Assembly: GCA_024698075.1 (NCBI GenBank)
Contig: JAILRP010000069.1
Location: 1 to 48,917 of the forward strand
Length of the DNA: 48,917 nt
Direction of reading: 5' to 3'
Source: Lachnospiraceae bacterium
GTDB taxonomy: Bacteria; Bacillota; Clostridia; Lachnospirales; Lachnospiraceae
Positions 6,057-37,789 of this stretch are shown here, piece by piece. Positions within the stretch are counted from its first letter, which is position 1. Each line of letters starts with the position of its first letter. The notes under the pieces were generated by a model. That model made no database searches, was not told where the DNA came from, and saw only the letters and a program-made list of their open reading frames with translations. Made by a program: the position numbers and the translations under genes.

Positions 6057-6062
6057 TATCGG

Positions 6063-6965: not shown

Positions 6966-7006
6966 TGTCTCCTTTAGCGGGCGGAGCGGGGTTTGTGCGT
7001 TCCGTG

Positions 7007-7043
7007 AAAATGGACCGCTGACAGGCCCCGGGGGGTCATTTTT
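7007..7043 (-). repeat. GC-rich stop-codon hairpin, copy 1 (serS 3' end)
   Basis: An imperfect hairpin with arms AAAATGGACC / GGTCATTTTT and a GC-rich centre spans the serS stop codon (7036-7038). The segment gaaaatggacc-n-ctgacag plus ccccggg is nearly identical to the copy after the S1-domain gene (39315-39348). On the minus strand the hairpin ends in a short U run, so it can act as the serS terminator. Confidence 0.7.
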
Positions 7044-8322: not shown

Positions 8323-8363
8323 TTCATATCTCCTTGGTTATTTAATTATTCAGACGGCACTTA

Positions 8364-11300
8364 TCATCTTATCTCGGAATGGTATTCCTGAAGTGATTTT
8401 ACGCCGCTCTTGCTGTTTTTGCTCGCCTTTATGCCCTCAAGGCTTGCCTTTGCGGCAGCCATTGTCGTCACATAAGGTATCCCCGCCTTGATGACGCCCT
8501 TCCTGATGTAGGAGTCGTCCATGGCGCCCTTCTTGTCATCTGGCGTGTTTATGACGATGGATACTTCCCTGTTGGTGATGACGTCAAGCACGTTCGGCCT
8601 GCCCTGCTGGAGCTTGAATATCTTTGTGGCAGGTATTCCGGCGCCGACGATCATGTCATACGTGCCTCCGGTTGCGATTATGTTAAAGCCGCACTCGTTG
8701 AAGCCTTCCGCCACGTCGAGTAGCTCAGGCTTGTCACGGTCGCTTACCGAGATCAGAACGCTTCCTTCAAGCGGAAGTGCGGTCTGCGTCGCTTCCTCTG
8801 CCTTAAAGAACGCCTCGCCGAAGTTGCTCGCCATTCCGAGCACTTCGCCCGTTGAGCGCATCTCGGGTCCGAGCAGCGGATCGACTTCCTGGAACATATT
8901 GAACGGGAACACCGCCTCCTTGACGCCGCAGTGCGCGTATTTCTTTTCACGCAGCTCCGGTACAGGCGAAGGCCTTCCTGTTATCGGCATCGTGATTATA
9001 TCTGTCGCGATGGGAACCATGCCGATGTTGCATACCTTCGATACGAGCGGAACCGTACGCGATGCCCTCGGGTTCGCCTCAAGGACATATACCGTGTCGG
9101 CCTCTATGGCATACTGCATGTTCATAAGGCCCTTGACGTTCATCTCCTTGGCGATCCTGCGTGTGTAGTCCTTTATGATCTCGACATTCTTTTCGGATAT
9201 GTTCTTCGAAGGAAGAACACATGCGCTGTCGCCCGAATGTATGCCCGCAAGCTCGATGTGCTCCATGACGGCGGGCACGAAAACGTTCTCACCGTCTGAG
9301 ATCGCATCTGCCTCGCACTCGAGCGCATTGTTTAAGAACCTGTCTATGAGTATCGGACGGTCCGGTGTGACACCTACTGCCGCCGCCATATATACCTTCA
9401 TGTGCTCGTCGTCATGAACGACTTCCATCCCGCGTCCGCCGAGGACATATGAAGGACGCACCATGAGCGGATATCCGATCTTCTTGGCGATAGAGAGCGC
9501 ATCATCGACCGTTACGGCCATTCCCGATTCGGGCATCGGTATTCCGAGCTTGTCCATCATGGCCCTGAAGAGGTCGCGGTCCTCCGCCATGTCTATAGTC
9601 TCGGGAGTCGTGCCGAGTATGTTTACTCCGTTCTTCTTAAGGTCAGCCGCAAGATTGAGCGGGGTCTGCCCGCCGAACTGTGCGATGACGCCGAGAGGCT
9701 TTTCCTTCTCATGTATCGCCAGGACATCCTCAAGAGTCAGAGGTTCAAAATAAAGCTTGTCCGACGTATCGTAATCGGTTGATACCGTCTCGGGATTGCA
9801 GTTGACGATGATAGTCTCGAAGCCGAGCTTCTTAAGTGCCATTGCCGCATGTACGCAGCAGTAGTCAAATTCTATTCCCTGGCCTATCCTGTTCGGGCCT
9901 CCGCCGAGTATCATGATCTTGCGGTTATCGCTCGAAGGCGACTCGTCTTTTATGTTGTATGAACTGTAATAGTAAGCGCTGTCCTGCGTGCCGCTGACAT
10001 GGACTCCTTCCCATCCCTCGACTATTCCGGCTCCTATCCTTGCATTCCTTATCTCTTCTTCGGAAACGTCGAGGAGCCCTGCAAGATACCTGTCGGAAAA
10101 TCCGTCCTTCTTGGCCTGTTCGAGAACATCCGTCGGAGGAACGGATCCCTTATAGCCTTTTATGGCCTCTTCCTCCTCAACGAGTTCCTTCATCTGCTCA
10201 AGGAAATAAGGCTTGATCTTGGTGATCGCATAAAGTTCTTTAAGGTCGGCTCCCTTCCTGATCGCCTCGTACAGTATGAACTGCCTCTCGCTTGACGGCG
10301 TGTGAAGCATGTCAAGAAGCTCCTTTACCGGAAGGTCTCCGAAGTTCCTTGCACCGCCGAGTCCGTACCTTCCCGTCTCGAGCGAACGGATGGCTTTCTG
10401 GAACGCCTCCTTGTATGTCTTTCCGATCGACATTACCTCGCCGACCGCACGCATCTGTGTGCCGAGCTTGTCCTGGGCTCCCTTGAACTTCTCAAACGCC
10501 CATCTTGCAAACTTGATGACGACATAGTCTCCGTCGGGAACATATTTGTCGAGCGTTCCGTATTTTCCGCACGGTATGTCGCAAAGGTCGAGGCCTGCCG
10601 CAAGCATCGCCGATACGAGTGCTATCGGGAATCCCGTAGCCTTTGATGCGAGCGCCGAAGAACGTGATGTCCTCGGATTGATCTCGATGACTATTATCCT
10701 GCCGTCATCCGTATTTCTGGCGAACTGGACGTTAGTGCCGCCTATGACCTCTATGGCATCAACTATCTTGTAAGCCTGTCTCTGTAGCTCCGCCTGCACA
10801 TCCTCGGGGATCGTGAGCATCGGTGCCGAGCAGAAGCTGTCTCCGGTATGCACGCCGAGCGGATCTATGTTCTCTATGAAGCAGACCGTGATCATCTTGC
10901 CCGTCGAATCCCTGACGACCTCGAGCTCGAGCTCTTCCCATCCGAGCACCGACTCCTCAACGAGGACCTGTCCCACGAGCGAGGCCTGCAGTCCCCTTTC
11001 GCACACGGTCTTTAATTCCTCGACGTTATATACGAGGCCTCCGCCTGCGCCGCCCATCGTGTAGGCGGGACGAAGGACGACGGGATATCCGAGCCTGTCA
11101 GCGATGGAAAGTGCATCATCGACCGAATATGCAACCTCAGACCTTGCCATCTCAATGCCGAGGCTTTTCATGAGGTTCTTGAACTCTATGCGATCCTCGC
11201 CCCTCTCAATGGCTTCGGGACGGACGCCGATGACTTTTACCCCGTACTTGTCGAGCACACCCTTTTTGTAAAGCTCGGAGCACAGGTTAAGCCCTGTCTG

Positions 11301-11576
11301 GCCTCCGAGGTTCGGGAGCAGTCCGTCCGGGCGCTCCTTTTCTATGATCTGCTCAAGCCTCTTTGCATTGAGGGGCTCGATATACGTCACATCTGCGGTC
11401 GCCGGGTCCGTCATTATGGTCGCGGGGTTCGAATTGACGAGCACTATCTCATATCCGAGTTTTTTGAGCGCCTTGCACGCCTGAGTTCCGGAATAGTCGA
11501 ATTCGCACGCCTGGCCGATTATTATCGGACCGCTTCCGATGATCAGTATCTTGTTCACGTCATCTCTCTTCTTCAT
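8364..11576 (-). CDS. carB: Carbamoyl-phosphate synthase large subunit
   Basis: The 1070-residue product shows the internal duplication of CarB: two ATP-grasp synthetase halves, the first starting VNKILIIGSGPIIIGQACEFD and the second after KIMILGGGPNRIGQGIEFD near residue 555. A C-terminal MGS-like allosteric domain follows (SVLISVSDRDK onward, about residue 935). With CarA it makes carbamoyl phosphate from glutamine-derived ammonia, bicarbonate and ATP for pyrimidines and arginine. CarA is not adjacent: the upstream gene is an MFS transporter ending in its own terminator. The start ATG 11576 has AAAGG at good spacing and a leader of about 90 bases. Confidence 0.97.
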   Translation of the reverse strand: MKKRDDVNKILIIGSGPIIIGQACEFDYSGTQACKALKKLGYEIVLVNSNPATIMTDPATADVTYIEPLNAKRLEQIIEKERPDGLLPNLGGQTGLNLCSELYKKGVLDKYGVKVIGVRPEAIERGEDRIEFKNLMKSLGIEMARSEVAYSVDDALSIADRLGYPVVLRPAYTMGGAGGGLVYNVEELKTVCERGLQASLVGQVLVEESVLGWEELELEVVRDSTGKMITVCFIENIDPLGVHTGDSFCSAPMLTIPEDVQAELQRQAYKIVDAIEVIGGTNVQFARNTDDGRIIVIEINPRTSRSSALASKATGFPIALVSAMLAAGLDLCDIPCGKYGTLDKYVPDGDYVVIKFARWAFEKFKGAQDKLGTQMRAVGEVMSIGKTYKEAFQKAIRSLETGRYGLGGARNFGDLPVKELLDMLHTPSSERQFILYEAIRKGADLKELYAITKIKPYFLEQMKELVEEEEAIKGYKGSVPPTDVLEQAKKDGFSDRYLAGLLDVSEEEIRNARIGAGIVEGWEGVHVSGTQDSAYYYSSYNIKDESPSSDNRKIMILGGGPNRIGQGIEFDYCCVHAAMALKKLGFETIIVNCNPETVSTDYDTSDKLYFEPLTLEDVLAIHEKEKPLGVIAQFGGQTPLNLAADLKKNGVNILGTTPETIDMAEDRDLFRAMMDKLGIPMPESGMAVTVDDALSIAKKIGYPLMVRPSYVLGGRGMEVVHDDEHMKVYMAAAVGVTPDRPILIDRFLNNALECEADAISDGENVFVPAVMEHIELAGIHSGDSACVLPSKNISEKNVEIIKDYTRRIAKEMNVKGLMNMQYAIEADTVYVLEANPRASRTVPLVSKVCNIGMVPIATDIITMPITGRPSPVPELREKKYAHCGVKEAVFPFNMFQEVDPLLGPEMRSTGEVLGMASNFGEAFFKAEEATQTALPLEGSVLISVSDRDKPELLDVAEGFNECGFNIIATGGTYDMIVGAGIPATKIFKLQQGRPNVLDVITNREVSIVINTPDDKKGAMDDSYIRKGVIKAGIPYVTTMAAAKASLEGIKASKNSKSGVKSLQEYHSEIR

Positions 11577-11671
11577 GGGACTGCCTTTCTTTTTTTGTAT
11601 TTATATACAGATTTGTTTTTGTCGGCTGATCTATCGACCGAGCACTCACTAGGCCGATTACTCAAACAAAT

Positions 11672-11677
11672 ATTATA
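11672..11677 (-). promoter_or_regulatory. Extended -10 promoter of carB
   Basis: The minus strand reads TTGGTATAAT, an extended -10 (TGn plus perfect TATAAT), about 95 bases upstream of the carB start. No convincing -35 hexamer is present at 17 bases. The leader between it and carB has a weak TCGGC/GCCGA pairing but no recognisable PyrR site or terminator. Confidence 0.6.
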
Positions 11678-11703
11678 CCAAAAATCCCCCTCCAAAACCA
11701 CAG

Positions 11704-11730
11704 AAAAATCCCCGCCTCAGAAGGCGGGGA
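11704..11730 (-). terminator. Rho-independent terminator of the MFS gene
   Basis: A 9-bp perfect GC-rich stem (11709-11717 with 11722-11730, 4-base loop) is followed by five U residues on the minus strand, 8 bases after the transporter stop codon. Confidence 0.92.
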
Positions 11731-11738
11731 ATGATGTA

Positions 11739-13037
11739 TCATTTCTTCGCTTTGTTGTTGAGTTTCGGTACCATCACACAGCTTATTATGAGTGCGACCA
11801 CATAAAGGGCGCCGGTCACGTAAAGCACTGTCTGGTATCCAACCGGATTGACCGAAGCAACATCCCCATTGGAAAGCGTTATCTCCTCAAACTCACCGAC
11901 ACGGTTGACGATAGCGGATGCCATCTGGTTGCCGGTAAGTCCGGCAATGGCCCAGGCGCTGAGGCACATTCCGTGCACTGAAGATATCTTGCCCATTCCG
12001 AAGTGGTCGGAGAGCAGCGTCGGCACGTTCGAAAATCCTCCGCCGTATCCCGCATTTACCATGATGAGAAGCGCCACGCAAAGTATTGCAAGGGGCATGC
12101 TTCCCGCTCCGTTCACGATACCCTGCGTCACGATGACAAGACCCGTGAATGCGATCGAAAGAATGAAGATCAGCTTGTAGATCGTGTTCCTGTCCTTAAG
12201 CGTATCTGCCCATGCTGAAAATCCAAGACGTCCTGCCGCATTTGCAATGGCGGTCACGGTTGCGAGCGTTGCACAGACACCTACGGAAAGCCCGACCGAC
12301 TTGAAGATCATCTTCTCCTGGGATATGAGCGCTAAGCCGCAAGCGATGTTGATATAGAACATCAGCCATATGCCGATGAATGTCTTGTTCCCGAATGACG
12401 TTTTGAAATTGCTCGCAAGTGTTGCGAAGAATTCCTTTATGCCGCCCTCCGAATGGGCCTCAACCCATGTCGAAGGCTTCTTTAAGATGAGGTGTCCGAT
12501 GAACATCATCACGCAGTATACACCGCCCATGATAAAGAACATGGGAGCCGGGTTGTTGTCAAATGCGTTAAGTATCGCCTGCATGATAGGGCTCGCGATA
12601 GCCTTTGCCAGTCCGAATCCGGCAACCGCCAGTCCGGTAGCCAGTCCCTTCTTGTCCTCGAACCAGAGCATAAGCGTCTTGACCGGTGACAAATATCCCG
12701 TTCCGAGTCCGATTCCCATTATGCATCCGTAGAATAAAAGGATGACCGGAAGCGACTTGATCATTATCCCGAATCCGGTCCCGATCATTCCGGCGGTAAA
12801 GCATACCGTTGCGATCAGCGATGAACGGTGGATGTTCTTTTCGACCACGTCGCCGAGGAATGCAGCCGACATTCCGAGGAAGAAGATCGCAAGCGAAAAT
12901 GCCCATTCGGTTGCTGATTTTGTTGCCCCGATATAATCAGCAATCTCTTTGGAAAAAGTCGACCAGCAGTAGACCGTACCTATGCTGCAGTGAAGAAGAA
13001 GCGCGGGAATGGCGCCTCGCACCCATTTGTTTTCCAT
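11739..13037 (-). CDS. OFA-type major facilitator superfamily transporter
   Basis: The 432-residue product starts MENKWVRGAIPALLLH and has about 12 membrane helices with a central cytoplasmic loop near residues 185-215. The opening segment, with CSIGTVYCWSTFSKEIADYIG, resembles the oxalate/formate antiporter (OFA) branch of the MFS, whose members move small carboxylates. No substrate can be assigned from sequence alone. I chose ATG 13037, which has GAGAGGT at good spacing; an upstream TTG at 13088 in the same frame lies at the transcription start and is unlikely. It is a single-gene unit with a consensus promoter, a possible operator palindrome at +1 and a strong terminator. Confidence 0.87.
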   Translation of the reverse strand: MENKWVRGAIPALLLHCSIGTVYCWSTFSKEIADYIGATKSATEWAFSLAIFFLGMSAAFLGDVVEKNIHRSSLIATVCFTAGMIGTGFGIMIKSLPVILLFYGCIMGIGLGTGYLSPVKTLMLWFEDKKGLATGLAVAGFGLAKAIASPIMQAILNAFDNNPAPMFFIMGGVYCVMMFIGHLILKKPSTWVEAHSEGGIKEFFATLASNFKTSFGNKTFIGIWLMFYINIACGLALISQEKMIFKSVGLSVGVCATLATVTAIANAAGRLGFSAWADTLKDRNTIYKLIFILSIAFTGLVIVTQGIVNGAGSMPLAILCVALLIMVNAGYGGGFSNVPTLLSDHFGMGKISSVHGMCLSAWAIAGLTGNQMASAIVNRVGEFEEITLSNGDVASVNPVGYQTVLYVTGALYVVALIISCVMVPKLNNKAKK

Positions 13038-13073
13038 TATGATACCTCTCTCTTCTGTATGTAAAATAAGAGC

Positions 13074-13124
13074 GTGCAGTCTGCACAAACATTTATATTA
13101 TAGGATAAAGCCGCAAAAAATCAA
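13074..13124 (-). promoter_or_regulatory. MFS promoter with a 13-bp palindrome at the start site
   Basis: On the minus strand TTGATT (13119-13124) is 16 bases from a perfect TATAAT (13097-13102). The palindrome GTGCAG-n-CTGCAC (13074-13086) covers the first transcribed bases, which is the position expected for a repressor operator. Confidence 0.72.
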
Positions 13125-13141
13125 GTGCGAACTGGCATGGC

Positions 13142-13179
13142 AAAAAGAAAACCCGCAGAGCCTTTAAGACTCTGCGGGT
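13142..13179 (-). terminator. Rho-independent terminator of the leucine-rich surface protein gene
   Basis: A 10-bp perfect stem (13151-13160 with 13170-13179) with a 9-base loop is followed by a U-rich tract on the minus strand, 22 bases past the stop codon at 13202. Confidence 0.9.
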
Positions 13180-13201
13180 GCCTTATATCATCCGTTCCGG
13201 C

Positions 13202-16200
13202 TTACTTGACTACCATTACCGGGATAGTGATTATCGTTCCCTGTGTATTCTTGGCCTGGTCCTTGTATCTTATCTCTATCGGAACTTTATATATCTGTCC
13301 CTCTTTAAGGAGTGAAGGCCTCTCAAGGAATACCGTTACCGCTCCGGCCGGGATCTTGTAGCCATTTGCATCGAGCACGAAGTTTCCGTCATTGTCCCGG
13401 AGCCAGTATCGGTCTCCTTCAGGATCGTCCTGCGTAACATCGATGACCCTGAATGCCCTTCTGATCTTCTCATCAGCCTTGTCATATATCTTAATGACAT
13501 CGGTGTCACCAAGGATTTCCATATAAGTTGCATCCTCATCAGGAGCTTCGTCAAATACTGCATTCTGGGCCGTAGTCTTGCCGAGCTTTAAGGTGAACAT
13601 CCTCTTTTCGGCACTTCCGCCGGCATACAGCGTATCATTTGTAAGGATCTGCTTAAGCTGAGGAAGCGTCTGTCTTGGTGTTATAGATACCTGTTTCGTT
13701 TCCCATTTTGCATCGGCATCCTCAACGGCGGCTCCGTCCTTTCCGTCAAACTCCTTGATATGGTAATAGATCCATATCGTATGTGCCCTACCGTCTGCAA
13801 GCGGTTCAATACCGTCATCCGGATCACCCATTATGTAGTCACGGTTAAGTGTTACGTCGAAGGTATCCGTATCTTCATCGATCTCACCAAGATCGAAATG
13901 TGGTGAATATCTCTTTCCCGCATCGTTCGTATACGGCTTTCCGGTCCTGATGTTCGTCTCGGCGAACTTCACGGCATTAAGTGTTCCGTTCAGATTCGAA
14001 ATCTTAACTGTATAACTCATATCATAACCGGGCACCTTGATATCGATCGAAGGGCTTACCGGGAAAACCTTATCAGTTACGATCTGGTTGAAGGATCCCT
14101 TCGGCACAACGCTTATGTTCACATCCTTATCATGTCCCTGAAGCGTAAACCTGACGCGCTGGAAGAGAAGCTCGTCTCCGTCATCAGTCTTCACAGGGAC
14201 ATCATACGCATAGTAACTATAGCTGAACGTCCCGGGGTTGATATGGGTGTTCAACGTGAGCGTTAAGATCGTGTTCCTGCCATTGTCATCTTCCTTGACG
14301 CCGAATTCGAACCTTCCGCGCCAGTTTCCATCATTGACCTTGGAGTACGTCTTGGTCGTCTTATCATATTCCACCACATCACCGGTAAAGTTGGTCGGAT
14401 AATTCTTTGCAATTGCTTCGATGTAAATATCATCAAGCGCATCTTCATCTATCTCATATCCGACGCCCTGTCCGAGCCCGTTAACCACGATGGGACACTC
14501 GGCAAGTTCACCGTATCCCGAGTAACGGGTATTAAGTGAGAACGTGCTCTTCTTCAAGACGATCTTTGTCGGTGTATCGGTAACATTAACCGAGAACCTG
14601 ACCGTCGGGCACTCATCGACATCGAGCTCATTATCCCCAAACTTGAGCAGGACTTTTGCAGTGAACGCATATGTGCCCTTCCTGATATCGTCATCTCCTC
14701 CGAGTGTTGCCGTAATGGCAGCGGGAAGGTTGGCGTCATCATCTTTTTCTGCAAAGTCGATGCCGATCTTTTCCGCTTCCTCTGCCCACTTGGCCGCTCC
14801 CTTGTATGTAACCTCATCAATGCCCACAAACTCAGCATCATTTAAGCTGCATTTAAGAGGGATCCTTGCAACCTGCTCAGGTGCCTGTTTGTTAAGCTTC
14901 GCCTGGGCAGGAGTTGCAGATGCATTTGCCTTGCTCTTGACCTCGGTCATGGCAAAGTCGAGCATCTTGGCCCTGCGCCACCAGTTCATCTTAAACGCGA
15001 TACGCTCTTTGCCGTTCGTGGGATAACCGTTTGCGGAAAGCATCATATAATCATTATATATCTGCTTGCCGGTCACGGGATCCTTGATCTTGTTTCCTTT
15101 TGCATCTTTTGCTTCTTTACGGATCTCCTCGTCATCATCCGGCACCTGTGGATCGTTGAAGAAATCCCCAGGCCTTGTCCCCAGAGTGCCCGTATAGTCA
15201 TTCTCTGCTGTCCAGAGCGGATCTCCGGGAGTCTCAGGATCATCCGGATCTGTCTCATAAAGCTCAACCGTCCTCTTGGGCGATACACCGTTATTGACTA
15301 CCGAAACATAATAATACGGGTTAATGAAATACTTGCTGGTGTTAACCCTTGTCGTCGAAAGACTGTAATTCGGGAACGTATACGAGCACGGTACCGTAAT
15401 AAACGAATTGACCGTTTTCTCATATCCGGCAAGCTTGATCATAACGACTCCCGAATTGACCAGGTTGCCCGTCTTGTAATCATACTCGAACATTGTATCA
15501 TCATCTATCGGATGATCTTCCGTATCATTGACACGAAGGACAAATCCAAGGTCATATCCCTGAGCGTTCTTTATGCACGTACCGTCCCACATGAAGTTTT
15601 CGCTGAACTCATCTCCGGCAGGAACAGGTCCGCTGTAATCGTTTGCCACATAGTTTTCTTTTGTTATGAGCTGAACATCCTCTATCGTAAGGTCGGGTGC
15701 ATTGGCAATGTTCATGTATACCTTTACACAGTTCGTATCGTTATACTCATAGTCCCTGTTGTAGAGCAGGTTTATGTTCCCGACATAGGAAAGCTTGATA
15801 GCGGGCTCCTCATTTATGACTACGACCTGGTTTATGGGCATATGGAAATCGACAGGTTCCTGGCCCTCACGCCTCTGCTTGCCGCACACATACAGCATCG
15901 AAGTGCCGCTGAACGTCGTCTTCTTGCCCTTAGCGAATCTCTTGTCATCCCTCTTGACCGAAAGTTTGATGATCTTCTCATACCAGACATCGCCGGTCTC
16001 CTCATCCTCATATCTGACTCTTTCGACATGGGCTGTAAAGTCTCCGGAAGGTGTGTATGTGGGAACACCGTTCGGAGTTGTTCTGAAGCATACCGTCAGC
16101 TGTGCTGTCTCATCGATATCGAAACCGTATACCGGAACGCACTTAAGCTCCGTGCCGCCACCCTGCTGGGTGTTTACAGTCACGATCTTCTTCTTCATCC

Positions 16201-29538: not shown

Positions 29539-30747
29539 TCATTCATACTCCCCAACAATATTAATTATATCTTCTGCGTATTTCGGGTATTCGCGGACAA
29601 GGGCCTCAAGCTCCTTCTTCGCGGTCTCTAAATTGTACATTTCGAAATCAATACCCTTTTTCAGTCTCTGGCGCTGGACGATGAGCTGCTTCCTGGTGTC
29701 CTTTGCCTCCTCATCATATACAAGGACTCCGGGCTGATATACCCATACCGAAGGATCGTTGATATGGTAATGCTTCAGTACCTGGTACAGCTGCGACCTT
29801 GCTTCCTCCATACGCTCGGACACATCGGTATCGTGCTCGCGCGCAGCCTTCTCCTCTTTGTATTTTTCCCAGATATATGCAAGCTCATGAGAGTTCATGA
29901 CTCCGTACTTGGAATAATTATAGTCGAGCACATTCGTGATGTTGACGTACTTTATCTTTACGGTGTTCTGTACGCTTATAGCCTTGTTCAGTTTCCTGTT
30001 GGCACTCGATATACCGCTCTGTGCGTTCTGGTACATGACGAATGATGCGGTGAGTGCAACGGCAAAGGCGCCCGCGAGTATTATGAATCCCATCTCGACT
30101 TCCACACGCATGGCCTGGTTCAGCACGAACAGGAGTGCTGCCGCCATTACGGCACCGAATATCGCAATGAACGCGATGTTCTTTGCGGTCCTTGCCCGGG
30201 AGCGTTCTTCTTTCCTCTGGTATGCCACGGCTCCTTTTTCACCTTCGAGCAGATTGAGGTCTCGGCGCACTTCCATCTGGTATTTCTCATCCTCAGCCAT
30301 TTTCTCAAGGACCGAGGGAATATCGTTCGCAAGCCGTTCCATCTCACGGTACTGTGCTTCCGTTATCTTTTTGGCAGGACGCGTATAGCCGCTCTCCTCC
30401 TGCTCTATCTTAAGGACCTTCTTGGCCCTTATCCTGACCTGGCTCTTATCCGCCACCGGAAGCTTGTCAAGCTCCTCAAGGTCGGCAAGCCGCTCGGTCA
30501 CCTGCTGATACTCTGCCTTCTGGGCGTCAACATCCTTCGATGCGACCGCCATCATGTCACAGTATTCCCTTACATACTGCTCACGCTGGGCTTTGTCGTT
30601 CATGTTGAGCGTGCGCCTCTTGCGGGACACGTTCGCCAGTGACTGCATGAGCGATTCGGCGGATTCAGAAGAGAAATTGATCTCTATGTCGTCAAAATCA
30701 TCCTCTCCGAATCCAAGTATGTCTTTGAGCCAGTTTATGAATTTCAT
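29539..30747 (-). CDS. Coiled-coil membrane protein of the DUF5717/DUF5716 cluster
   Basis: The 402-residue product is a long charged coiled coil (about residues 30-190) followed by two membrane helices (IAFIAIFGAVMAAALLFVL and MGFIILAGAFAVALTASFVMY, residues about 190-245). A second helical, probably cytoplasmic, region ends the protein. With both ends on the same side, the two helices would form a hairpin anchor. I do not recognise a named family. It is the last gene of the four-gene cluster, preceded by a 113-base gap that carries copy B of the structured repeat. GGAGATAGATC before ATG 30747 is a good RBS. The likely role is as membrane anchor of the system; this is inference from topology and order. 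Confidence 0.8.
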   Translation of the reverse strand: MKFINWLKDILGFGEDDFDDIEINFSSESAESLMQSLANVSRKRRTLNMNDKAQREQYVREYCDMMAVASKDVDAQKAEYQQVTERLADLEELDKLPVADKSQVRIRAKKVLKIEQEESGYTRPAKKITEAQYREMERLANDIPSVLEKMAEDEKYQMEVRRDLNLLEGEKGAVAYQRKEERSRARTAKNIAFIAIFGAVMAAALLFVLNQAMRVEVEMGFIILAGAFAVALTASFVMYQNAQSGISSANRKLNKAISVQNTVKIKYVNITNVLDYNYSKYGVMNSHELAYIWEKYKEEKAAREHDTDVSERMEEARSQLYQVLKHYHINDPSVWVYQPGVLVYDEEAKDTRKQLIVQRQRLKKGIDFEMYNLETAKKELEALVREYPKYAEDIINIVGEYE

Positions 30748-30770
30748 GATCTATCTCCGTTCTGAACATG

Positions 30771-30859
30771 GACTGATCGCCGATTCAAGATCCGACTGCG
30801 TCGGATGCGGCGAGCGGTGCAGCAAGGGATCTTCCCACTTCGTGGGCCCCTCCTTCCTG
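30771..30859. repeat. Structured intergenic repeat element, copy B
   Basis: This copy aligns with the core at 4309-4400. It has an outer stem (30777-30781 with 30809-30813), the 7-bp hairpin ATCCGAC/GTCGGAT (30790-30796 with 30800-30806; loop TGC instead of TTC) and a third hairpin CCCAC/GTGGG (30834-30838 with 30842-30846). In copy A the third hairpin is CCCATC/GATGGG, so the paired bases change together. On the minus strand it lies just upstream of the coiled-coil gene. Confidence 0.75.
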
Positions 30860-30860
30860 C

Positions 30861-31715
30861 CTATTCCATTGAGCGTCTGTATTCCAGCTTCCAGTTTTCG
30901 AGGGTGTTGTCGAGGATCCTGTAGCATTCCGAGATGCGGCCGGCATCGTGGAGTTCCAATATTTTTCTCATTGAGTCGCCGTACGGAGTGTCTATCCGGG
31001 CCTCCCTTGCCGATGTCATGATCCTGACCGCCTCGAGCGCGATCCGCTCATCATATCCGTTCCTGACGACTATCCTGTCATAGTCTTCCTTCTTGGCGGA
31101 CAGGCGCAGGCAGACAAGGTACATCACCAGACTCTCCCTCGACTCATCTATCTCATAAGCCTGCTTGAAATATTCGCCGGCTTTATCGAGCAGGAACATC
31201 ATCGCGTATGCGCACCCCACGTTATGGAGTATCGAGCTGTAGAGCTCGGGTTCCTCATCCTTATCGAGAACGGACAGGACGTACTGGTATTCCTCGATCG
31301 CGCGAGGATACTTGTTTGCGCAAAGCAGGTTGTCGCCCCTGACTTTCCGCTTCGCGGCGAATGACAGCGACGCATTGTCAACGAGTATCTGCTTGATCCT
31401 GGCGATCTCTTCCTCATTGCAGTATTTCGTGTCGATGAGTATCGTCGTGACCATCTCGCCGAGTGTGCGGTTTTCCTTGATCATCTTGCGTATCTTGTTA
31501 GCAAGGGGGACCATGTCAAGGTTGTCGCGCATGTAGTCGCACAGCCTGACGTCGATAAGGTCATTGTCAAGGATATAGGCATTAACGCACAGGTAATAGC
31601 ACAGCTCATCCATTGAATAGATGTTTACGCCGAGTCCTGACAGAAAATATGGAGTTGTGGAAAGTGCCCCGAGGCACATGTACATTTCAGCTGCCACTTC
31701 CGTACTTCCCTGCAT
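30861..31715 (-). CDS. TPR-like helical protein of the DUF5717/DUF5716 cluster
   Basis: The 284-residue product is all-helical and soluble. The first half begins MYMCLGALSTTPYFLSGLG and contains YSMDELCYYLCVNAYILD, a segment I associate with Lachnospiraceae proteins encoded next to DUF5716 and DUF5717. The second half has TPR-like pairs such as YPRAIEEYQYVLSVL and LDKAGEYFKQAYEIDESRESL. TPR proteins commonly act as docking adaptors, including for Hsp70. The start ATG is joined directly to the preceding gene's stop (TGAATG), so the two proteins are likely made by coupled translation in matched amounts. Confidence 0.8.
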   Translation of the reverse strand: MQGSTEVAAEMYMCLGALSTTPYFLSGLGVNIYSMDELCYYLCVNAYILDNDLIDVRLCDYMRDNLDMVPLANKIRKMIKENRTLGEMVTTILIDTKYCNEEEIARIKQILVDNASLSFAAKRKVRGDNLLCANKYPRAIEEYQYVLSVLDKDEEPELYSSILHNVGCAYAMMFLLDKAGEYFKQAYEIDESRESLVMYLVCLRLSAKKEDYDRIVVRNGYDERIALEAVRIMTSAREARIDTPYGDSMRKILELHDAGRISECYRILDNTLENWKLEYRRSME

Positions 31716-32996
31716 TCATCGGAATTCGATGATCTTTTCCCATGTTTTTCCCGTAGAGGGGAAGAACTCACCGAATCCCATGTCCTTTACTTCTATCTTC
31801 ATCCTTGTCTCTGATTCGAAGGATACCGTGATGCGGAGCCGTGATGCCTTCGCGGGCCTGTCGGGCAGTCCCGCAAGGTCGACCTCGATGTTCTCCGCGC
31901 CCTTGCCGTCGAGCGGCGTCATGATCAGCGGAACAGTCTTCGTGTTTCCGAGGACGACATCATATGTCACTCCCGAATCATACCAGTTCTCGCCGGCATC
32001 CGCCACGGCTATGTATTCCTCCTCGCCCGCGACGACCATGTTGAGGCCCAGATTGAACTTAAGCTTGTCGGGGCCTAAGAATACATATTCCCTGTTGAGG
32101 TCACATGGCGCCGCCTTGTCATGTCCGCAGTAGCATGCGCCCTTGGAATACATGTTCCTTCCCTGGAACACGCGGCGTCCCATGCACATGAACTTCAGCG
32201 TCTTGCTGCACCATCCGCCTTCGAATCCTTCTCCGAGAAGGAAGACGGTTCCGACATTTCCGTTGGCAAAATAGTCATGCGCGGTCTGAAGGACGAGTTC
32301 GTCGATCCTGTCTGCCTTCTCCATCGACTCCTCTTCCTTCATCATGTATTTGGGCATCTTGATCTCTTTAAAATCAGTCCTGTCGACAAATGCGACGACC
32401 GGTGTCGTTCCCCTGTTCATCCAGAGTTCATATGCCCGAAGATGCGAAGCGGAATAGTCGAACACCGAAACATCCTTTTCCCAGAGGTCCGCGGGCTGAT
32501 GGATCATGTAATAGTAGATGCTTTCCTCATATGTCTGTATTATTATCTTCTCCCTTGGCACGGGCATTGAATTGGCGATCCGCTCGACGACATCCACAAG
32601 ACGCCCCTCAAGGGTTGCCACGGTGATTATCATGTATTCCACTTCCGAAGGAGACAGGACCATGGACAGGAGGTTCAGCGACCTTCTGACGAACAGGATC
32701 AGAAGGTCCGTTGCATCATATGCCTCGCCCTCTATCTCGATCCTCGCGCCTGCAGACGCAAAGCTCAGGAGATTGTCCACAAGCGTTGCGTTCCCGGCCT
32801 CCGAAGCCTTAATCGCTGCGTTTCCGAATTCCCACTGCGCCACTCCCCTGCGCTTTGACAGCACCGTGGGAATGCCGAGGCGTTCTTCATCGTCATCGCT
32901 CGCGACCGTTTCCGGAACGGTTTCATTCAGTTCAAAATAGCTTATCTGCGACATGGAGTCGTTCAGATCATAGCCGAGTATGTATTTAGCTGACAT
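31716..32996 (-). CDS. Hsp70/actin-fold-like protein (DUF5716-like)
   Basis: The 426-residue product follows the order of Hsp70 landmarks. These are a phosphate-1-like strand (ILGYDLNDSMSQISYF, residues 6-21, Asp10), a segment IPTVL...WEFGNAA (42-61), and EYMIITVATLEGR (120-132) matching Hsp70's VITVPAYF. Next come TYEESIYYYMIHQ (155-167), where EPTAAAlaY is expected, VSVFDYSASHLRAYEL (176-191) in place of VFDLGGGTFD, and TVFLLGEGF (250-258). After residue 300 a beta-rich region with RLRITVSFESETRMKIEVKD resembles the Hsp70 substrate-binding sheet. Glycines of both phosphate loops are lost, so nucleotide hydrolysis is doubtful. RBS GGAAAAAG precedes ATG; the gene starts 8 bases after the DUF5717-like gene. 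Fold assignment is inference from motifs. Confidence 0.8.
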   Translation of the reverse strand: MSAKYILGYDLNDSMSQISYFELNETVPETVASDDDEERLGIPTVLSKRRGVAQWEFGNAAIKASEAGNATLVDNLLSFASAGARIEIEGEAYDATDLLILFVRRSLNLLSMVLSPSEVEYMIITVATLEGRLVDVVERIANSMPVPREKIIIQTYEESIYYYMIHQPADLWEKDVSVFDYSASHLRAYELWMNRGTTPVVAFVDRTDFKEIKMPKYMMKEEESMEKADRIDELVLQTAHDYFANGNVGTVFLLGEGFEGGWCSKTLKFMCMGRRVFQGRNMYSKGACYCGHDKAAPCDLNREYVFLGPDKLKFNLGLNMVVAGEEEYIAVADAGENWYDSGVTYDVVLGNTKTVPLIMTPLDGKGAENIEVDLAGLPDRPAKASRLRITVSFESETRMKIEVKDMGFGEFFPSTGKTWEKIIEFR

Positions 32997-33004
32997 CTTT
33001 TTCC

Positions 33005-36000
33005 TTATCTGAGTTTGAATACCCTGTGCGCAAAGGAATCCGCCTCGACATATTCGCGCATGATGTCGAGCAACGTGTTGTCATCCTTGACGGTGCGGGA
33101 TACGACCATGTCGTTCAGCATCGTGTATCTCGATTCGACATGTGAGTCGCTCGTGTCGCTTACCGACAGCGAATCGCTCGCGGTCAGGAGCTCTTTCCCG
33201 TTCTGCTCCTCAGTGATGTAATACTGGAGATTTTCACCGAAGAAGAGAATGAACTCCCGTGTAAAGACTCCGCCGAACATGTTCCTCATTTCTTCCGTAT
33301 GGTAGCTCTCGTCCTCATCCTGTCCGTTCTCGAGTATGTAGTGGAGCATGACCCTGTTGCTCGGATTGGTCCTGTATTCTATGATCGTCTTGTCAAGATA
33401 ATCCGATATCTCCGGCACAAGATCCGCATATTTCGAGAAGAACCTGAAGTACGTGTTCCTGTGCATGAAGTCGACTAAGAACTCCTTCAGCATCGCCTTG
33501 ACTTTTTCCGTCTGGAGCTGCTTTTCCTCGGAATAATACTTTAAGAGCGCGAGCTTGCACGCATCATTTATCTTCTCTCCGAGCCGGTACAGTTCCGTTA
33601 TGTGCTCGAACACGCGCGGATCGGTAAGCCTTTCCTTGGCGAAATATTCAAATGAACAGTACGACAGGTATGCGAGCATGACCTTTGTCCCGGTGCAGGC
33701 CCTGCTGTACTCCTCGAATATCTCCTCCTTCTCACCGACAGTCGTGTGGGTGTAGAGCATCTGTATGATAAGCCTTTCCATGAGCGGGAATGTGTCCACG
33801 TCAAAACCCCTTGCGGCCTTCCATATGTTCCTCAGCTGCTTTGTCAGCCCGTTGAAATTCTCCACGAGGTAGCGCAGCAGCACCTCATCATACTTACCGT
33901 TCTCAAACGCAAAATAACAGAGCTTGATGAGGAGCGTGTCGGGTGTCTTGTCATTTTCCTGTATCATGTGGCTGCACACGCCGACGCAGTCCTTGGCGGC
34001 GATCTCCTCTGTGCCGTATATGGACAGGATCTGATATGCCTTTTCAAACATGCCCCGCCTGGTCATGAACTTCACCACGCTAGCCCTGTCCTTGGCGGAA
34101 AGGACTTTTACATTCATGTTCATCAGGAACTCATCGAGCGTAGTTACCTGGTCATTGTCATAGTAATACTGTATGAGTGCCATCCTGATGTCGCGCTTGT
34201 AGTATTCGCAGACAAGCTCCGACTCGGCAAGCTCACGGCAGAACTCGACGTTCGAATCGTCGACCGTGACGTAATGCTTCCTGCCCTCGCACAGGTACAT
34301 GTCAAAATATACGTTGTCGAGCACATAATATCTTATGGACTGCATGAACACCGCTTCGTTCATGAGCTTTCTGACGTTTGAGCCGTCGATGATCCTGCGC
34401 CTCTTTGCGGAGTCCTCAGTAAACAGGGTGAACTCCCCGGAATATATGGTAGGGTATGCATATCCGTTCTCGATCTTGAACACGAGCTCGCCCTCGAACT
34501 GTGACTGCACGAGCACAACATTCTTGGCCTCGGGATCGTTGATCTTCACTTCATATGCAAACAGGATCTTTGCAAGATGCCTCGCCATCTCGGGCTTGAT
34601 CATCTCTAAGAACAGCACGTCCTCATAAACCTTGGCAATGTTTCCGTCGATGTGTTCCTGCTCTATCTGCTCAACGGCAAATACCTGCATGTGTTCGCGG
34701 TATGTGTCGTAAGTGTCGGCATATTCCCTCTTGTGGGCTATGAGGTTGGCATACAGCAGCGCTATCCTGTGATAGTTCATGTCGTTCCTGAATCCGAAGT
34801 ACATGAGCACCGACCTCGGTATCAGCCCGTCGTAATCGGACGGAACGGAATACATATAATACTCGTAAAGCCTGGTAATGCGCAGCTGCATCCTGACGGC
34901 TCTGTCAAACCACCTGAAATACTTCGGTCCGGATATGTTCCCCTTGATGAGGAGCGTCGATATGACTTCAACGAGGCCCTCATCGCCTGATAAGTCATAG
35001 CACATGCACAGGAGCGAATACAGCAGCGGATCGTAATCCCTCTGCCTTCCGGCAAGATACATCAGCTGCTTTAAAAGCTCTGCGTCCATTATGTCCATCT
35101 TCGCCGCAAACAGGAGCACCTGTATCTCGAACGCAGAGAGCTTGCTGAACTTTTCCGGATTGGCGACGAAGAAGTTGTACGCCTCTATGTACATGACGGG
35201 GGATGTGCATCCGCCTTCAAACATCTTTTCTATCAGGGTGATCTTGCGCGAAGCATTGTCCGTAAGGTTTTCGTCAAGATAGAGCAGCGTCCACAGTATC
35301 TCGAAGCTGTCCGGGTTGGCCGTGAACAGAGCGTTCACCTTTGCTGCAGTCTCGTTTATGTATTCATCGCTCCGGTTCACGAGTGTTGTAAGGTACATGA
35401 AATATGCCTTCACCCTGTCAGGGCATTCGGCGATGTTCATCTCGTTCTCAACATGCTCGAGCACCCATTTGGCTTCATTCTCGCGCCTCTGCACCACAAG
35501 AAGCTGCGCCTGGTAGAGCCTGGAGACGGGATTTTTGTCATCGAGGGAATTCATGCGTTCCACGATCTTCATCGACTCCCTCACCCAGCTTCCGACATTG
35601 GTCTTCTTCATGCGGAAATCAACATACTGCCGCATGAGCCGCAGCGTAAGGTTTCTCTTCTCGCGGCGCTCGACCCTCTTCGCGTTGACCCTCGCCCTAT
35701 GCCTTGCGATGATGTTTATGTCCACGCAGCTGTTTGCCGAGCTTACGGTGATCGTTCCGAAGTTGCGGCCTTCATGGAGCCTGTCTCCGATTATCGTGAA
35801 CTTCATCATATGGTCGTTGCCGACAAAATCATCGGCTCCGATCTCTTCCTTCTCTATCCTGATGAAAGGAACGTCGCTTGTGATCTTTGCCTCAATGTTC
35901 CCCCATGTTGACTTGTGAAGGAGAAGCTCGCATTCAAGATCATCCGAAACATCGGTGTATTCATAGTGCGTCCTGTCGACCGAATACTCGACCGGACGCT

Positions 36001-36565
36001 TCTTATTGATAGCCACGAGAAAATCATCCACGGCCTGTGAATTGCCCGGAATGTTCGAAAGGCCCCTGTACTTGTCGTAATGTATCCTGTCATTGCCGCC
36101 GAACACCTGCGGAAATACCGGAGAATAAAAAAGCTCTACGGCCTCTTCCCAGTTGACCTGTGCCTGGTTGGTAAAGTGGAACAGGTTCCTGACATTGCCG
36201 AGCGAGCTCTGGACTATCCCGTAGGAAACGGAGAACACGAACGGAAGGTAATACTCTCCCGCATTCGATACGACCTGGATGTCGCCTTTTACGACGTCTC
36301 CGCTCTCGAGTCCCGTCGAATCGAATACATAATGTATGGTTGCAGACGGTTCATCATCGACATGGTCGTTCCTGCATACGAGACGCATGCTGGACGTATA
36401 TATTGTAGCGGTAAAATCCCTCCCGTCTTCGGAAGACAGTGTGAAGCTTCCCTCGAACAGCTGCCCCTTCGGCATGTCGGCTTCGATCCTGGCCGTGGAA
36501 AAAAGAAGTTTCCCGCAGTCATAGTCAAAGAAACCGTCAGCACACCTGTCGATTACCGCCCGCAC
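33005..36565 (-). CDS. Giant beta-sandwich / alpha-solenoid protein (DUF5717-like)
   Basis: The 1186-residue product begins with about 300 residues of beta-rich domains: GSFTLSSEDGRDFTATIYTS, GEYYLPFVFSVSYG and a second sheet around FVGNDHMMKFTIIGDRL. A conserved-looking stretch NLFHFTNQAQVNWEEAVELFYSP lies between them. From about residue 310 onward it is a long helical solenoid with TPR/HEAT-like pairs. There is no signal peptide or membrane helix. I recall this architecture as DUF5717, encoded beside DUF5716 in Lachnospiraceae. I chose GTG 36565, with GGCGGTGA at good spacing and the expected N-terminal segment RAVIDRCADGFFDYD. An in-frame GTG at 36640 would add 25 residues but has only a 10-base leader and no RBS. 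First gene of the four-gene operon. Confidence 0.82.
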   Translation of the reverse strand: MRAVIDRCADGFFDYDCGKLLFSTARIEADMPKGQLFEGSFTLSSEDGRDFTATIYTSSMRLVCRNDHVDDEPSATIHYVFDSTGLESGDVVKGDIQVVSNAGEYYLPFVFSVSYGIVQSSLGNVRNLFHFTNQAQVNWEEAVELFYSPVFPQVFGGNDRIHYDKYRGLSNIPGNSQAVDDFLVAINKKRPVEYSVDRTHYEYTDVSDDLECELLLHKSTWGNIEAKITSDVPFIRIEKEEIGADDFVGNDHMMKFTIIGDRLHEGRNFGTITVSSANSCVDINIIARHRARVNAKRVERREKRNLTLRLMRQYVDFRMKKTNVGSWVRESMKIVERMNSLDDKNPVSRLYQAQLLVVQRRENEAKWVLEHVENEMNIAECPDRVKAYFMYLTTLVNRSDEYINETAAKVNALFTANPDSFEILWTLLYLDENLTDNASRKITLIEKMFEGGCTSPVMYIEAYNFFVANPEKFSKLSAFEIQVLLFAAKMDIMDAELLKQLMYLAGRQRDYDPLLYSLLCMCYDLSGDEGLVEVISTLLIKGNISGPKYFRWFDRAVRMQLRITRLYEYYMYSVPSDYDGLIPRSVLMYFGFRNDMNYHRIALLYANLIAHKREYADTYDTYREHMQVFAVEQIEQEHIDGNIAKVYEDVLFLEMIKPEMARHLAKILFAYEVKINDPEAKNVVLVQSQFEGELVFKIENGYAYPTIYSGEFTLFTEDSAKRRRIIDGSNVRKLMNEAVFMQSIRYYVLDNVYFDMYLCEGRKHYVTVDDSNVEFCRELAESELVCEYYKRDIRMALIQYYYDNDQVTTLDEFLMNMNVKVLSAKDRASVVKFMTRRGMFEKAYQILSIYGTEEIAAKDCVGVCSHMIQENDKTPDTLLIKLCYFAFENGKYDEVLLRYLVENFNGLTKQLRNIWKAARGFDVDTFPLMERLIIQMLYTHTTVGEKEEIFEEYSRACTGTKVMLAYLSYCSFEYFAKERLTDPRVFEHITELYRLGEKINDACKLALLKYYSEEKQLQTEKVKAMLKEFLVDFMHRNTYFRFFSKYADLVPEISDYLDKTIIEYRTNPSNRVMLHYILENGQDEDESYHTEEMRNMFGGVFTREFILFFGENLQYYITEEQNGKELLTASDSLSVSDTSDSHVESRYTMLNDMVVSRTVKDDNTLLDIMREYVEADSFAHRVFKLR

Positions 36566-36656
36566 CGTATTCACCGCCTTTCGTAGGATTTTCTCAGAAT
36601 TTTTTGACGCGATGTTGCCCAAGTGATATACTTTGGGCACATTAGCATACAGAATA

Positions 36657-36685
36657 ATTATAGCTTATTAGCAGAAGAGGTGCAA
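36657..36685 (-). promoter_or_regulatory. Promoter of the DUF5717/DUF5716 operon
   Basis: On the minus strand TTGCAC (36680-36685) is 17 bases from a perfect TATAAT (36657-36662). Transcription would start near 36650. The leader to GTG 36565 carries an imperfect hairpin GCCCAAA / TTGGGC (36617-36638). The -35 lies within 10 bases of the divergent aminotransferase start. Confidence 0.75.
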
Positions 36686-36691
36686 TAAAAT

Positions 36692-37789
36692 ATGCTGAAG
36701 CACAGGGACAGTTTTCATGGCAGCGACCTTGAGAAAATAGAGCGTTTATACGGCATCCGCAAGGAGGACATCATAAGCTTTTCAGCCAACGTCAACCCGC
36801 TCGGGATATCCGGAAAGCTCCGGCGCGAGCTGCCCTACCATCTTGATGTCATAACCTCATATCCCGACAGGGATTATACGGACCTGCGCGGCGTGATCGC
36901 CGGGTACTGCGGGACGGTGCCGGAAAACATCCTTGTCGGCAACGGATCTACAGAGCTCATCACTCTTTTCATCCGCACAGTCGGGCCGAAAAAGGCTCTG
37001 CTCATCGGCCCCACCTACTCAGAGTATGAGCGTGAGCTCTCGCTTTCAGGTGCATCTTCCGCTTATTTTCCCCTGAAGGAGAAGGATGATTTTAAGCTCG
37101 ATGCCGATGCGCTCATCGACAGCCTTGACCGTTCGGTCGACATGCTCATCATGTGCAATCCGAACAACCCGACCTCAACTGCCGCCACAAGGGATGACAT
37201 ACGGCGCATCCTCGATGCCTGCAGGTCATATGGCATCTACGTTATGGTCGATGAGACATATGTGGAATTTGCCGAAAAATATGACGAGATCAGCTGTGTC
37301 GCTCTTACGGCCGACTATGACAATATCTGCCTGCTGCGCGGCGTGTCCAAGTTTTTTGCTGCCCCAGGCCTGAGGCTCGGCTATGCCATATGCGGTAATC
37401 AGGGGCTCCTGTCAGACATCTCGTCCATCAAGGATCCCTGGACGGTCACATCCATTGCGGAAACGGCCGGCAGGATAATGTTTTCGGATACGGAATACAT
37501 CGCAGCCACAAAGGAGCTCATCTTCAGTGAAAGGCGTCGGGTCACCGAGGCACTCCGCGCGATCCCGGGGCTTAAGGTTTACGAGCCTGCCGCCAACTTT
37601 GTCCTCTGCCGCATAGAAAAAGAGAATGCCGATGCCGACATCCTCTTTGACAGAGCGATACGCAGCAATATGATGATAAGAAACTGCTCTACATTTACGT
37701 ATCTTGACAACAGCTACTTCCGCATCTGCTTCATGAACCCCGCCGACAATGACAGGCTTCTTGCACTGATCAGGGAAGTCATCTCATAA
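36692..37789 (+). CDS. PLP-dependent aminotransferase of the HisC/CobD group
   Basis: The 365-residue fold-type I enzyme has HGSDLEKIERLYGI and ISFSANVNPLG at the N-terminus, a form more like threonine-phosphate decarboxylase (CobD) than classic HisC. Cofactor residues are visible: the Asn pair in CNPNNPTS (near 156-160), Asp187 in VMVDETY, and the Schiff-base Lys220 in RGVSKFFAAPGLRLGY. It could be histidinol-phosphate aminotransferase, a CobD-like decarboxylase or another amino acid aminotransferase. No his or cobalamin genes lie nearby to decide. RBS AGAGGTG precedes ATG 36692. It diverges from the DUF5717 operon and is followed at once by a hairpin shared with the convergent HAD gene. Confidence 0.87.
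   Translation: MLKHRDSFHGSDLEKIERLYGIRKEDIISFSANVNPLGISGKLRRELPYHLDVITSYPDRDYTDLRGVIAGYCGTVPENILVGNGSTELITLFIRTVGPKKALLIGPTYSEYERELSLSGASSAYFPLKEKDDFKLDADALIDSLDRSVDMLIMCNPNNPTSTAATRDDIRRILDACRSYGIYVMVDETYVEFAEKYDEISCVALTADYDNICLLRGVSKFFAAPGLRLGYAICGNQGLLSDISSIKDPWTVTSIAETAGRIMFSDTEYIAATKELIFSERRRVTEALRAIPGLKVYEPAANFVLCRIEKENADADILFDRAIRSNMMIRNCSTFTYLDNSYFRICFMNPADNDRLLALIREVIS

Follow-up and report, generated by a model that had tools for sequence, protein, structure and literature searches.

A four-gene operon on the minus strand of a Lachnospiraceae contig encodes what we consider, at slightly better than even chances, to be a membrane-tethered, ATPase-dead chaperone or adaptor scaffold built around an Hsp70 similar to yeast Ssz1 and reduced from a dedicated Hsp70/GrpE/vWA machine. 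The operon lies in the window, the whole 48,917-nucleotide stretch that was analysed (GenBank assembly GCA_024698075.1, contig JAILRP010000069.1). Its anatomy is well supported, and the protein on which the reading turns is the product of its second gene, a member of the family DUF5716 that is predicted to have the fold of a whole Hsp70 and to have lost the residues of its ATPase. In the order of transcription, the four genes are:

33005-36565, minus strand: DUF5717 protein, 1186 aa from GTG 36565 (PF18984 and PF18983; start by comparison; model; Foldseek)
31716-32996, minus strand: DUF5716 protein, 426 aa, predicted nucleotide-binding domain (NBD) and beta part of the substrate-binding domain (SBD-beta), degenerate ATPase motifs, short IIB region, lidless (PF18980; model; Foldseek; motifs; lengths)
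30861-31715, minus strand: TPR protein, 284 aa (278 aa from GTG 31697), conserved N-terminal domain before the repeats (PF07719; orthologues)
29539-30747, minus strand: coiled-coil (CC) protein, 402 aa, predicted two-helix membrane hairpin at residues ~191-209 and ~219-237 (hydropathy; position after the TPR gene; orthologues)

The DUF5716 protein as a relative of Hsp70

The structural model of the DUF5716 protein (32 sequences) reached a predicted local distance difference test score (pLDDT) of 88.8 and a predicted template modelling score (pTM) of 0.85. A Foldseek search of the PDB with this model returned 431 matches at an expect value (E) of 0.001 or below, of which the best was DnaK (7.4e-20). 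Among the best 50 of these 431 matches, 48 have titles that name Hsp70 or an Hsp70 complex, and the other two are ciliary central-pair complex chains that are not named further. The matches to chains of DnaK, BiP, Hsc70, Ssb and the Ssz1 complex extended across 498-563 alignment columns. TM-scores by query length ranged from 0.43 to 0.60 in the same best 50, which may be read as the domains of the model being set differently. Taken together, the model and the Foldseek matches place an actin-like nucleotide domain and then an SBD-beta over the whole length of the protein, and this supports its assignment as a whole-length Hsp70 relative. The Hsp70 or actin fold that the sequence-only reading had proposed for the 426-residue protein is thus what the modelling returned.

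At the sequence level, the product of the second gene matched PF18980 (DUF5716_C) with an E of 8.5e-98, and the Pfam scores of the DUF5716 and DUF5717 proteins of the window (327.4, 917.6 and 352 bits) lie over the curated cut-offs, while an NCBIfam scan of the window proteins gave nothing over its cut-offs. The Pfam descriptions of the families to which these proteins belong, DUF5716_C (PF18980) and DUF5717 (PF18984, PF18983), give no function, and both the link of DUF5716 with Hsp70 and the larger cluster described below go beyond them.

A larger Hsp70/GrpE/vWA cluster in other families

The sequence relation to Hsp70 came from other families of the order, from which 12 genomes with DUF5717 were taken (loci L078-L089), five loci were extended and 20 selected proteins were scanned with Pfam. 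DUF5717 is mostly split in these families into two genes of ~400 and ~900 aa, with a single gene in L083, and an Hsp70 gene comes after DUF5717 wherever the stretch reaches far enough. The order in L081/L102 is DUF5717-A, DUF5717-B, Hsp70-1, a GrpE protein, Hsp70-2, Hsp70-3, Hsp70-vWA, TPR and coiled coil. In this cluster, Hsp70-1 and Hsp70-3 match the HSP70 family with an E of 1.8e-77 and 2.5e-57, respectively, the GrpE protein matches GrpE (1.4e-14) and Hsp70-vWA matches both HSP70 (2.5e-95) and VWA_4 (1.3e-10). GrpE was matched in the three proteins scanned for it (L081, L078 and L088) and vWA in both (L102 and L103). By profile search, the TPR gene is orthologous in four of the five extended loci (E 1.4e-27 to 5.1e-19); in the fifth, L101, it is matched in pieces. 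A coiled-coil orthologue is present in two of the five, L101 (1.3e-63) and L102 (2.3e-37), the coiled-coil profile giving no match in L103, L104 and L105. All nine genes are present in two of the five extended loci, one of which has broken open reading frames (ORFs). Several further loci break off within the cluster, and L084 has a gene resembling Hsp70-2 but none of the other genes in the part that was read.

The bridge between the two families is Hsp70-2. The Hsp70-2 protein of L081 matches both DUF5716_C (1.8e-25) and HSP70 (1.9e-16) in Pfam, and DnaK chains of the PDB with a best E of 4.1e-10, so that DUF5716 is related in sequence to Hsp70 by way of this protein. Both families were matched by two of the three Hsp70-2 proteins scanned (L081 and L086). 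The anatomy given by the sequence-only reading is borne out; the lost ATPase residues of DUF5716 and the related larger cluster had escaped it.

Five loci of other families also have, directly upstream of DUF5717-A, a gene for a membrane protein that contains a long coiled coil. Three of these proteins were scanned and matched no Pfam family over its cut-off. The CC protein of the window was considered as a relative of this protein and rejected (hhalign probability 1.7%). The upstream coiled-coil membrane proteins are:

L080:5770-7155
L082:5625-6932
L086:6196-7644
L085:6748-7743, minus strand
L087:9727-10947, minus strand

Loss of ATPase residues and of the IIB lobe

The degeneracy of the DUF5716 protein was assessed in an alignment of 21 DUF5716, 10 Hsp70-1, 7 Hsp70-2, 5 Hsp70-3, 4 Hsp70-vWA and 2 DnaK sequences. 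The DUF5716 rows (370-470 aa) came from 21 chosen loci of the window's family, near copies and partial sequences being left out. Positions were placed by motif and carry the E. coli DnaK residue names (K70, E171, T199, D201, T11, T12, N13 and the others used here). None of K70, E171, T199 and D201 is present in 20 of the 21 DUF5716 rows, and the remaining row (L047) retains T199; K70 is thus kept in 0/21 (with one gap), E171 in 0/21, T199 in 1/21 and D201 in 0/21. Likewise, T11, N13 and G342 are kept in 0/21 rows each and T12 in one (L048). K70, E171, T199 and D201 are all absent from the seven Hsp70-2 rows and all present in the 21 rows of Hsp70-1, Hsp70-3, Hsp70-vWA and DnaK. Subdomain IIB lies in the segment D194-G341, whose length is 60-77 residues in DUF5716 compared with 143 in DnaK and 137-152 in Hsp70-2; ~70 residues are missing from DUF5716 where this subdomain is expected. 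The residues that follow the SBD mark number 21-23 in DUF5716, 162-170 in DnaK and 17-32 in Hsp70-1, -2 and -3. Measured against a DnaK-type Hsp70, DUF5716 has neither the catalytic and phosphate-binding residues nor a complete subdomain IIB nor the C-terminal helical lid.

Subdomain IIB is, according to a review, the target of all nucleotide exchange factors (NEFs) (PMC4753570), so that the loss of this lobe fits the absence of a GrpE gene in the operon. The computations support the conclusion that DUF5716 has lost the residues for ATP hydrolysis, together with most of the NBD lobe that NEFs grip, and has kept its SBD-beta.

Descent of the DUF5716 protein

A maximum-likelihood tree of the 49 rows was obtained under LG+C20+F+G4. 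Hsp70-1, Hsp70-3, Hsp70-vWA and DnaK form one side of a branch with 100/100 support, and DUF5716 forms one side of another with 99/99. DUF5716 pairs with the Hsp70-2 of L078 (99/100), and the remaining six Hsp70-2 rows lie between it and the intact Hsp70s. The simplest reading of this topology is that DUF5716 would be a descendant of Hsp70-2.

Hsp70-1 was absent from all 60 genomes of the window's family that were searched. The best score with the Hsp70-1 profile was 190 bits, against 747-1103 for true members left out of the profile, 201-217 for DnaK and up to 234 for Hsp70-vWA. This search was aimed at Hsp70-1, with none made separately for a loss of Hsp70-3 or Hsp70-vWA. PF00012 found one DnaK in the window's genome and a partial match in a 336-aa frame, which was taken for MreB. 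Additional Hsp70 matches, in frames of ~560-610 aa, occur in many other family genomes and score at or below the DnaK level with the Hsp70-1 profile.

Conservation and gene order

DUF5717 (PF18984) is present in 119 of the 120 genomes sampled from the window's family, with one match in most. It was found in 57 of the 117 genomes of the order sample and, over its cut-off, in 13 of the 293 genomes of the class sample, the same 13 in which PF18980 is over its cut-off. The genomes of the order sample contained both families (54), DUF5717 alone (3; G484, G502 and G546), DUF5716 alone (1; G490, below cut-off) or neither (59). Outside the window's family, some of the PF18980 matches are probably Hsp70-3 besides Hsp70-2, because the Hsp70-3 of L081 matches PF18980 too.

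Gene order was surveyed in 43 loci (the window, 32 from genome contigs and 10 from family genomes) by comparing every ORF of 60 aa or more with profiles made from the matches of the survey itself; some of the sampled genomes are fragmented metagenome-assembled genomes and the gene calls are longest ORFs. The complete order DUF5717-DUF5716-TPR-CC on one strand was found in 35 of the 43 loci, as expected from the proposal that this neighbourhood is conserved. DUF5717 adjoins DUF5716, and DUF5716 the TPR gene, in 42/42 cases in which both places lie within the locus, and CC follows TPR in 36 of the 40 loci with room for it. Contig ends cut L033, L041, L045 and L062, and another gene follows TPR in L056, L091, L093 and L098, four genomes in which CC was not searched for elsewhere.

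In the literature searched, no description of the cluster was found by title and start of abstract among the matches listed, the nearest being PMC7159879. The literature searched does not name DUF5717, and DUF5716 appears in it only in work that by its title concerns an unrelated subject. Within this literature, the system is therefore as undescribed as the sequence-only reading had supposed. The Lachnospiraceae are among the commonest bacteria of the animal gut, and a cluster that 119 of 120 sampled family genomes carry, with no published function in that literature, is a real gap in their core biology. The analysis suggests an identity for two DUF families.

Apart from the cluster's own genes, the gene families recurring in at least four sampled loci, which were named by reading and without a family search, include purine synthesis genes, ABC-transporter parts, valS-like, RarA-like and sporulation-sigma-like genes and a CobD-like aminotransferase; none of them pointed to a function. 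The valS-like gene (named by reading) lies beyond the cluster end in L093, L099, L101 and L102, two loci of the window's family and two of others, and its presence in loci of different families suggests an old, vertically kept gene order. DUF5717 was also found in four 'phage' records. The one that was read, L119 (MT835486.1:1-20868, labelled Bacteriophage sp.), has DUF5717, DUF5716, TPR and CC in order at 5332-14920 and then a valS-like gene in two ORFs (named by reading). This record from a faecal sample looks like chromosome and was taken as bacterial DNA because of the valS-like gene and other chromosomal-looking genes.

The partner proteins

The DUF5717 protein matches PF18984 and PF18983 with E values of 8.7e-276 and 3.6e-105. 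Its model (22 sequences) suggests the domain order of two Ig-like beta-sandwiches, an alpha-solenoid, a small beta domain, a further solenoid and a C-terminal beta domain, in agreement with the solenoid and N-terminal beta-sandwiches read from the sequence. With a pLDDT of 85.5 and a pTM of 0.55, the model is credible for the single domains but not for the way they are arranged. The PDB matches of this model by Foldseek are weak (E 1.3e-6 and up, with low TM-scores). Alignments of ~280-300 columns, to ciliary central-pair chains and Ig modules, were assigned by their length to the putative N-terminal pair of beta-sandwiches, and those of 720-980 columns involved proteins made of helical repeats, among them Naa15 and chains of the Ski complex. 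Separately, ORFs of 321-338 aa in four genomes of another family of the same class (G191, G225, G276 and G336; family f30) match the middle of DUF5717-B with E values of 2.5e-11 to 4.8e-4, and perhaps represent a shared domain outside the system.

The TPR protein, which had been named as such before, matches TPR_2 (PF07719) at an E of 9.2e-6, slightly under the cut-off, and such weak Pfam matches support the name. The CC protein matches no Pfam family over its cut-off, and the membrane hairpin previously attributed to it is seen in the hydropathy profile as two helices. No J domain was found by Pfam in the four window proteins at E <= 1.

Proposed mechanism and known systems

How such an assembly could work is suggested by the anatomy. 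The four products would form one complex in which DUF5717, with its Ig-like and solenoid repeats, would be the platform and the TPR protein the adaptor, and the CC protein would anchor the complex by its hairpin at the inner face of the membrane. With its beta domain, the pseudo-Hsp70 would bind, at low affinity and with no nucleotide cycle, an extended peptide belonging to a partner or a client and would then pass it on, much as Ssz1 does next to Ssb in yeast; DnaK is a possible acceptor. On the same platform, the larger version would run a genuine Hsp70 cycle driven by ATP. A secretion-like machine, which had also been suggested, found no support.

The nearest working analogue of DUF5716 would be Ssz1 of the yeast ribosome-associated complex. 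Ssz1 is described as lidless and unable to hydrolyse ATP, and yet as an active chaperone of low affinity (PMC7083937); since it does not hydrolyse ATP, it needs no classical NEF. Both would be lidless Hsp70s with an SBD-beta, and Ssz1 is non-hydrolysing and acts as a fixed member of a complex that contains other chaperones. For DUF5716, the lack of a lid and the SBD-beta are indicated by length and model, and non-hydrolysis is suggested by the residues. In contrast, Ssz1 binds ATP and pairs with the J-domain protein Zuo1 (PMC7083937), whereas the window operon encodes an Hsp70 relative with a truncated IIB region and a partner with a membrane hairpin, and none of its products gave a J-domain match.

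The nearest published gene cluster is that of the GAP1-N2 GTPase-centric systems, whose HSP70/GrpE theme includes HSP70, GrpE, a beta-sandwich/TPR protein and membrane proteins (PMC7159879). Some of these systems are described there as carrying an HSP70 without the peptide-binding domain, whereas DUF5716 would keep the peptide-binding beta domain and lose the ATPase residues, and the operon is family-wide and not patchy. HSP70 together with GrpE was seen in the larger cluster of other families and not in the window operon. The GAP1-N2 domain itself (PF20013) was found in none of the nine genomes searched, the window's included, and no GTPase was matched among the cluster proteins scanned. With the DnaK-GrpE system, the likeness consists of the fold of DUF5716 and of the GrpE domain and intact Hsp70s of the larger cluster; the window operon differs from it in having no active Hsp70, GrpE or lid and in having a large scaffold protein of its own.

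The chances are even that, in the family as a whole, a dedicated multi-Hsp70/GrpE/vWA machine has been converted into a pseudo-Hsp70 scaffold, ATPase-dead and tethered to the membrane, which lacks an exchange factor of its own and has been retained as part of the core gene set. On this reading, the scaffold would be the bacterial equivalent of Ssz1, with DUF5717 as a new platform, and the larger cluster would be an undescribed Hsp70 machine as well. The larger cluster offers a concrete handle here, as its GrpE, intact Hsp70s and Hsp70-vWA fusion point to a chaperone machine. The existence of the two versions makes it testable what stays useful in an Hsp70 after the loss of the ATP cycle, and which parts (SBD-beta, scaffold or anchor) are then under selection.

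Weighing the alternatives

Several observations weigh against the reading of the operon as a reduced, ATPase-dead Hsp70 scaffold. The profile of DUF5716 from the window's family alone found no PDB sequence at E <= 1, so the link with Hsp70 rests on the model and on the Hsp70-2 bridge, and the Hsp70-2 of L078 matches DUF5716_C only, with no HSP70 match at E <= 0.1. G6, D8 and G341 are each kept in 21/21 DUF5716 rows and the D194 column is acidic (D in 16 and E in 5 of 21), which leaves room for nucleotide binding. The E171 column is sensitive to the alignment, because the next column holds E in 8/21 and D in 2/21 rows, and the absence of a lid is no sign of decay, because Hsp70-1, -2 and -3 have none either. 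In the tree, the branches of DUF5716 and Hsp70-2 are long (a program warning was given), so the exact attachment of DUF5716 is unsure, and a loss in the window's family rather than a gain elsewhere is argued from parsimony, with no outgroup. No J domain was found among the scanned proteins of either the operon or the larger cluster. The anchor is not always present, since the CC gene does not follow TPR in 4/40 loci and had no match in three of the five extended larger clusters.

The alternative that survives best, though an improbable one, is a cell-shape or cytoskeletal scaffold, in which a protein of actin/Hsp70 fold would now serve as a structural subunit, attached to the membrane through the hairpin protein, and would organise envelope growth or division. 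MreB, FtsA and PilM share their superfamily fold with Hsp70, and the non-catalytic conservation, the membrane anchor and the family-wide retention are what such a scaffold would lead one to expect; in one locus, a gene named by reading as MreB-like (L095:38-1033, minus strand) lies ~6 kb past the end of CC. The model, however, matches whole Hsp70s including their SBD-beta, with Hsp70 named in nearly all of the best 50 matches, the tree places DUF5716 with Hsp70-2, whose cluster carries GrpE, and no division or wall gene was recognised by reading among the neighbours in at least four sampled loci.

Less probable again is a conflict or defence system, in which the platform and the pseudo-Hsp70 would sense an intruder and set free the two-transmembrane coiled-coil protein to act as an effector at the membrane. 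GAP1-N2 GTPase systems with HSP70 and GrpE are predicted to work in this way. That prediction includes clusters with HSP70, GrpE and FNIII-TPR proteins, and some with 2TM effectors (PMC7159879), and seven of 25 CC members weakly match a '2TM effector' model of PADLOC (best E 8.9e-5). This match may reflect composition, since coiled-coil models match CC too (LeoBC 2/25, MukB-like JetC 1/25). Defence genes are patchy, unlike an operon that occurs, mostly once, in 119 of 120 family genomes; the putative effector gene does not follow TPR in 4/40 loci, and the GAP1-N2 domain was absent from the nine genomes searched. Neither PADLOC (no match at E <= 1 for DUF5716, DUF5717 and TPR) nor the plasmid search (no match for DUF5716 at E <= 1e-5) nor the family-wide presence supports a defence system. 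A working but divergent Hsp70 cycle, in which DUF5716 would hydrolyse ATP with other residues and use the DnaJ and GrpE of the cell, is very unlikely: G6, D8, G341 and an acidic residue at D194 are kept, and DnaK is the only other full Hsp70 by PF00012 in the window's genome, but 20 of 21 rows have none of the four catalytic residues, one row keeps a single one and ~70 residues of the IIB region are missing.

Operon layout, promoter and start sites

The reduced Hsp70 scaffold would be expressed from four minus-strand ORFs (36640-33005, 32996-31716, 31715-30861 and 30747-29539), which are separated by 8, 0 and 113 bases. The stop of the second gene abuts the ATG of the third in the junction TGAATG. 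These tight genes, their order, the junction and the TTGCAC-N17-TATAAT promoter had all been noted before and are present in the sequence. Upstream of the genes are:

36680-36685, minus strand: -35 box TTGCAC of the operon promoter (sequence; upstream alignment)
36657-36662, minus strand: -10 box TATAAT, spacer of 17 bases (sequence; upstream alignment)
36617-36638, no strand assigned: inverted repeat GCCCAA..TTGGGC, directly downstream of the promoter (sequence)

When the upstream region of the window was aligned with those of 11 close relatives, the positions of both boxes were kept in 12/12, the -35 box as TTGCAC (10) or TTGAAC (2) and the -10 box as TATAAT (2) or TATACT (10). The region 36617-36638 is conserved in close relatives, the repeat itself being imperfect in several; it is a possible operator or 5' leader hairpin, and folding of the leader RNA is unexceptional (z -0.64).

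The DUF5717 frame is open from 36640, where the first GTG gives 1211 aa. This GTG overlaps the partly conserved inverted repeat, the frames of close relatives stop short of it and begin near GTG 36574, and the Pfam match starts at residue 27 of the long form. The start is probably GTG 36574 or 36565 rather than 36640, and GTG 36565 (1186 aa) is the likelier because the Shine-Dalgarno-like sequence AGGCGGTG precedes it. The TPR gene of close relatives begins at the equivalent of GTG 31697, which may be its start in the window instead of ATG 31715.

The 113-base gap between TPR and CC (30748-30860) holds, by eye, hairpin-like repeats; of the 35 other loci that contain both genes, 34 have a gap shorter than 60 bases or an overlap, and L038 has one of 146. 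On the other side, a CobD-like aminotransferase gene (named by reading; 36692-37789) diverges from the operon. Sixteen of 55 other loci have a relative upstream, in the same sense; it adjoins DUF5717 in 14 of them, with one gene between the two in L080 and L081, both of other families.

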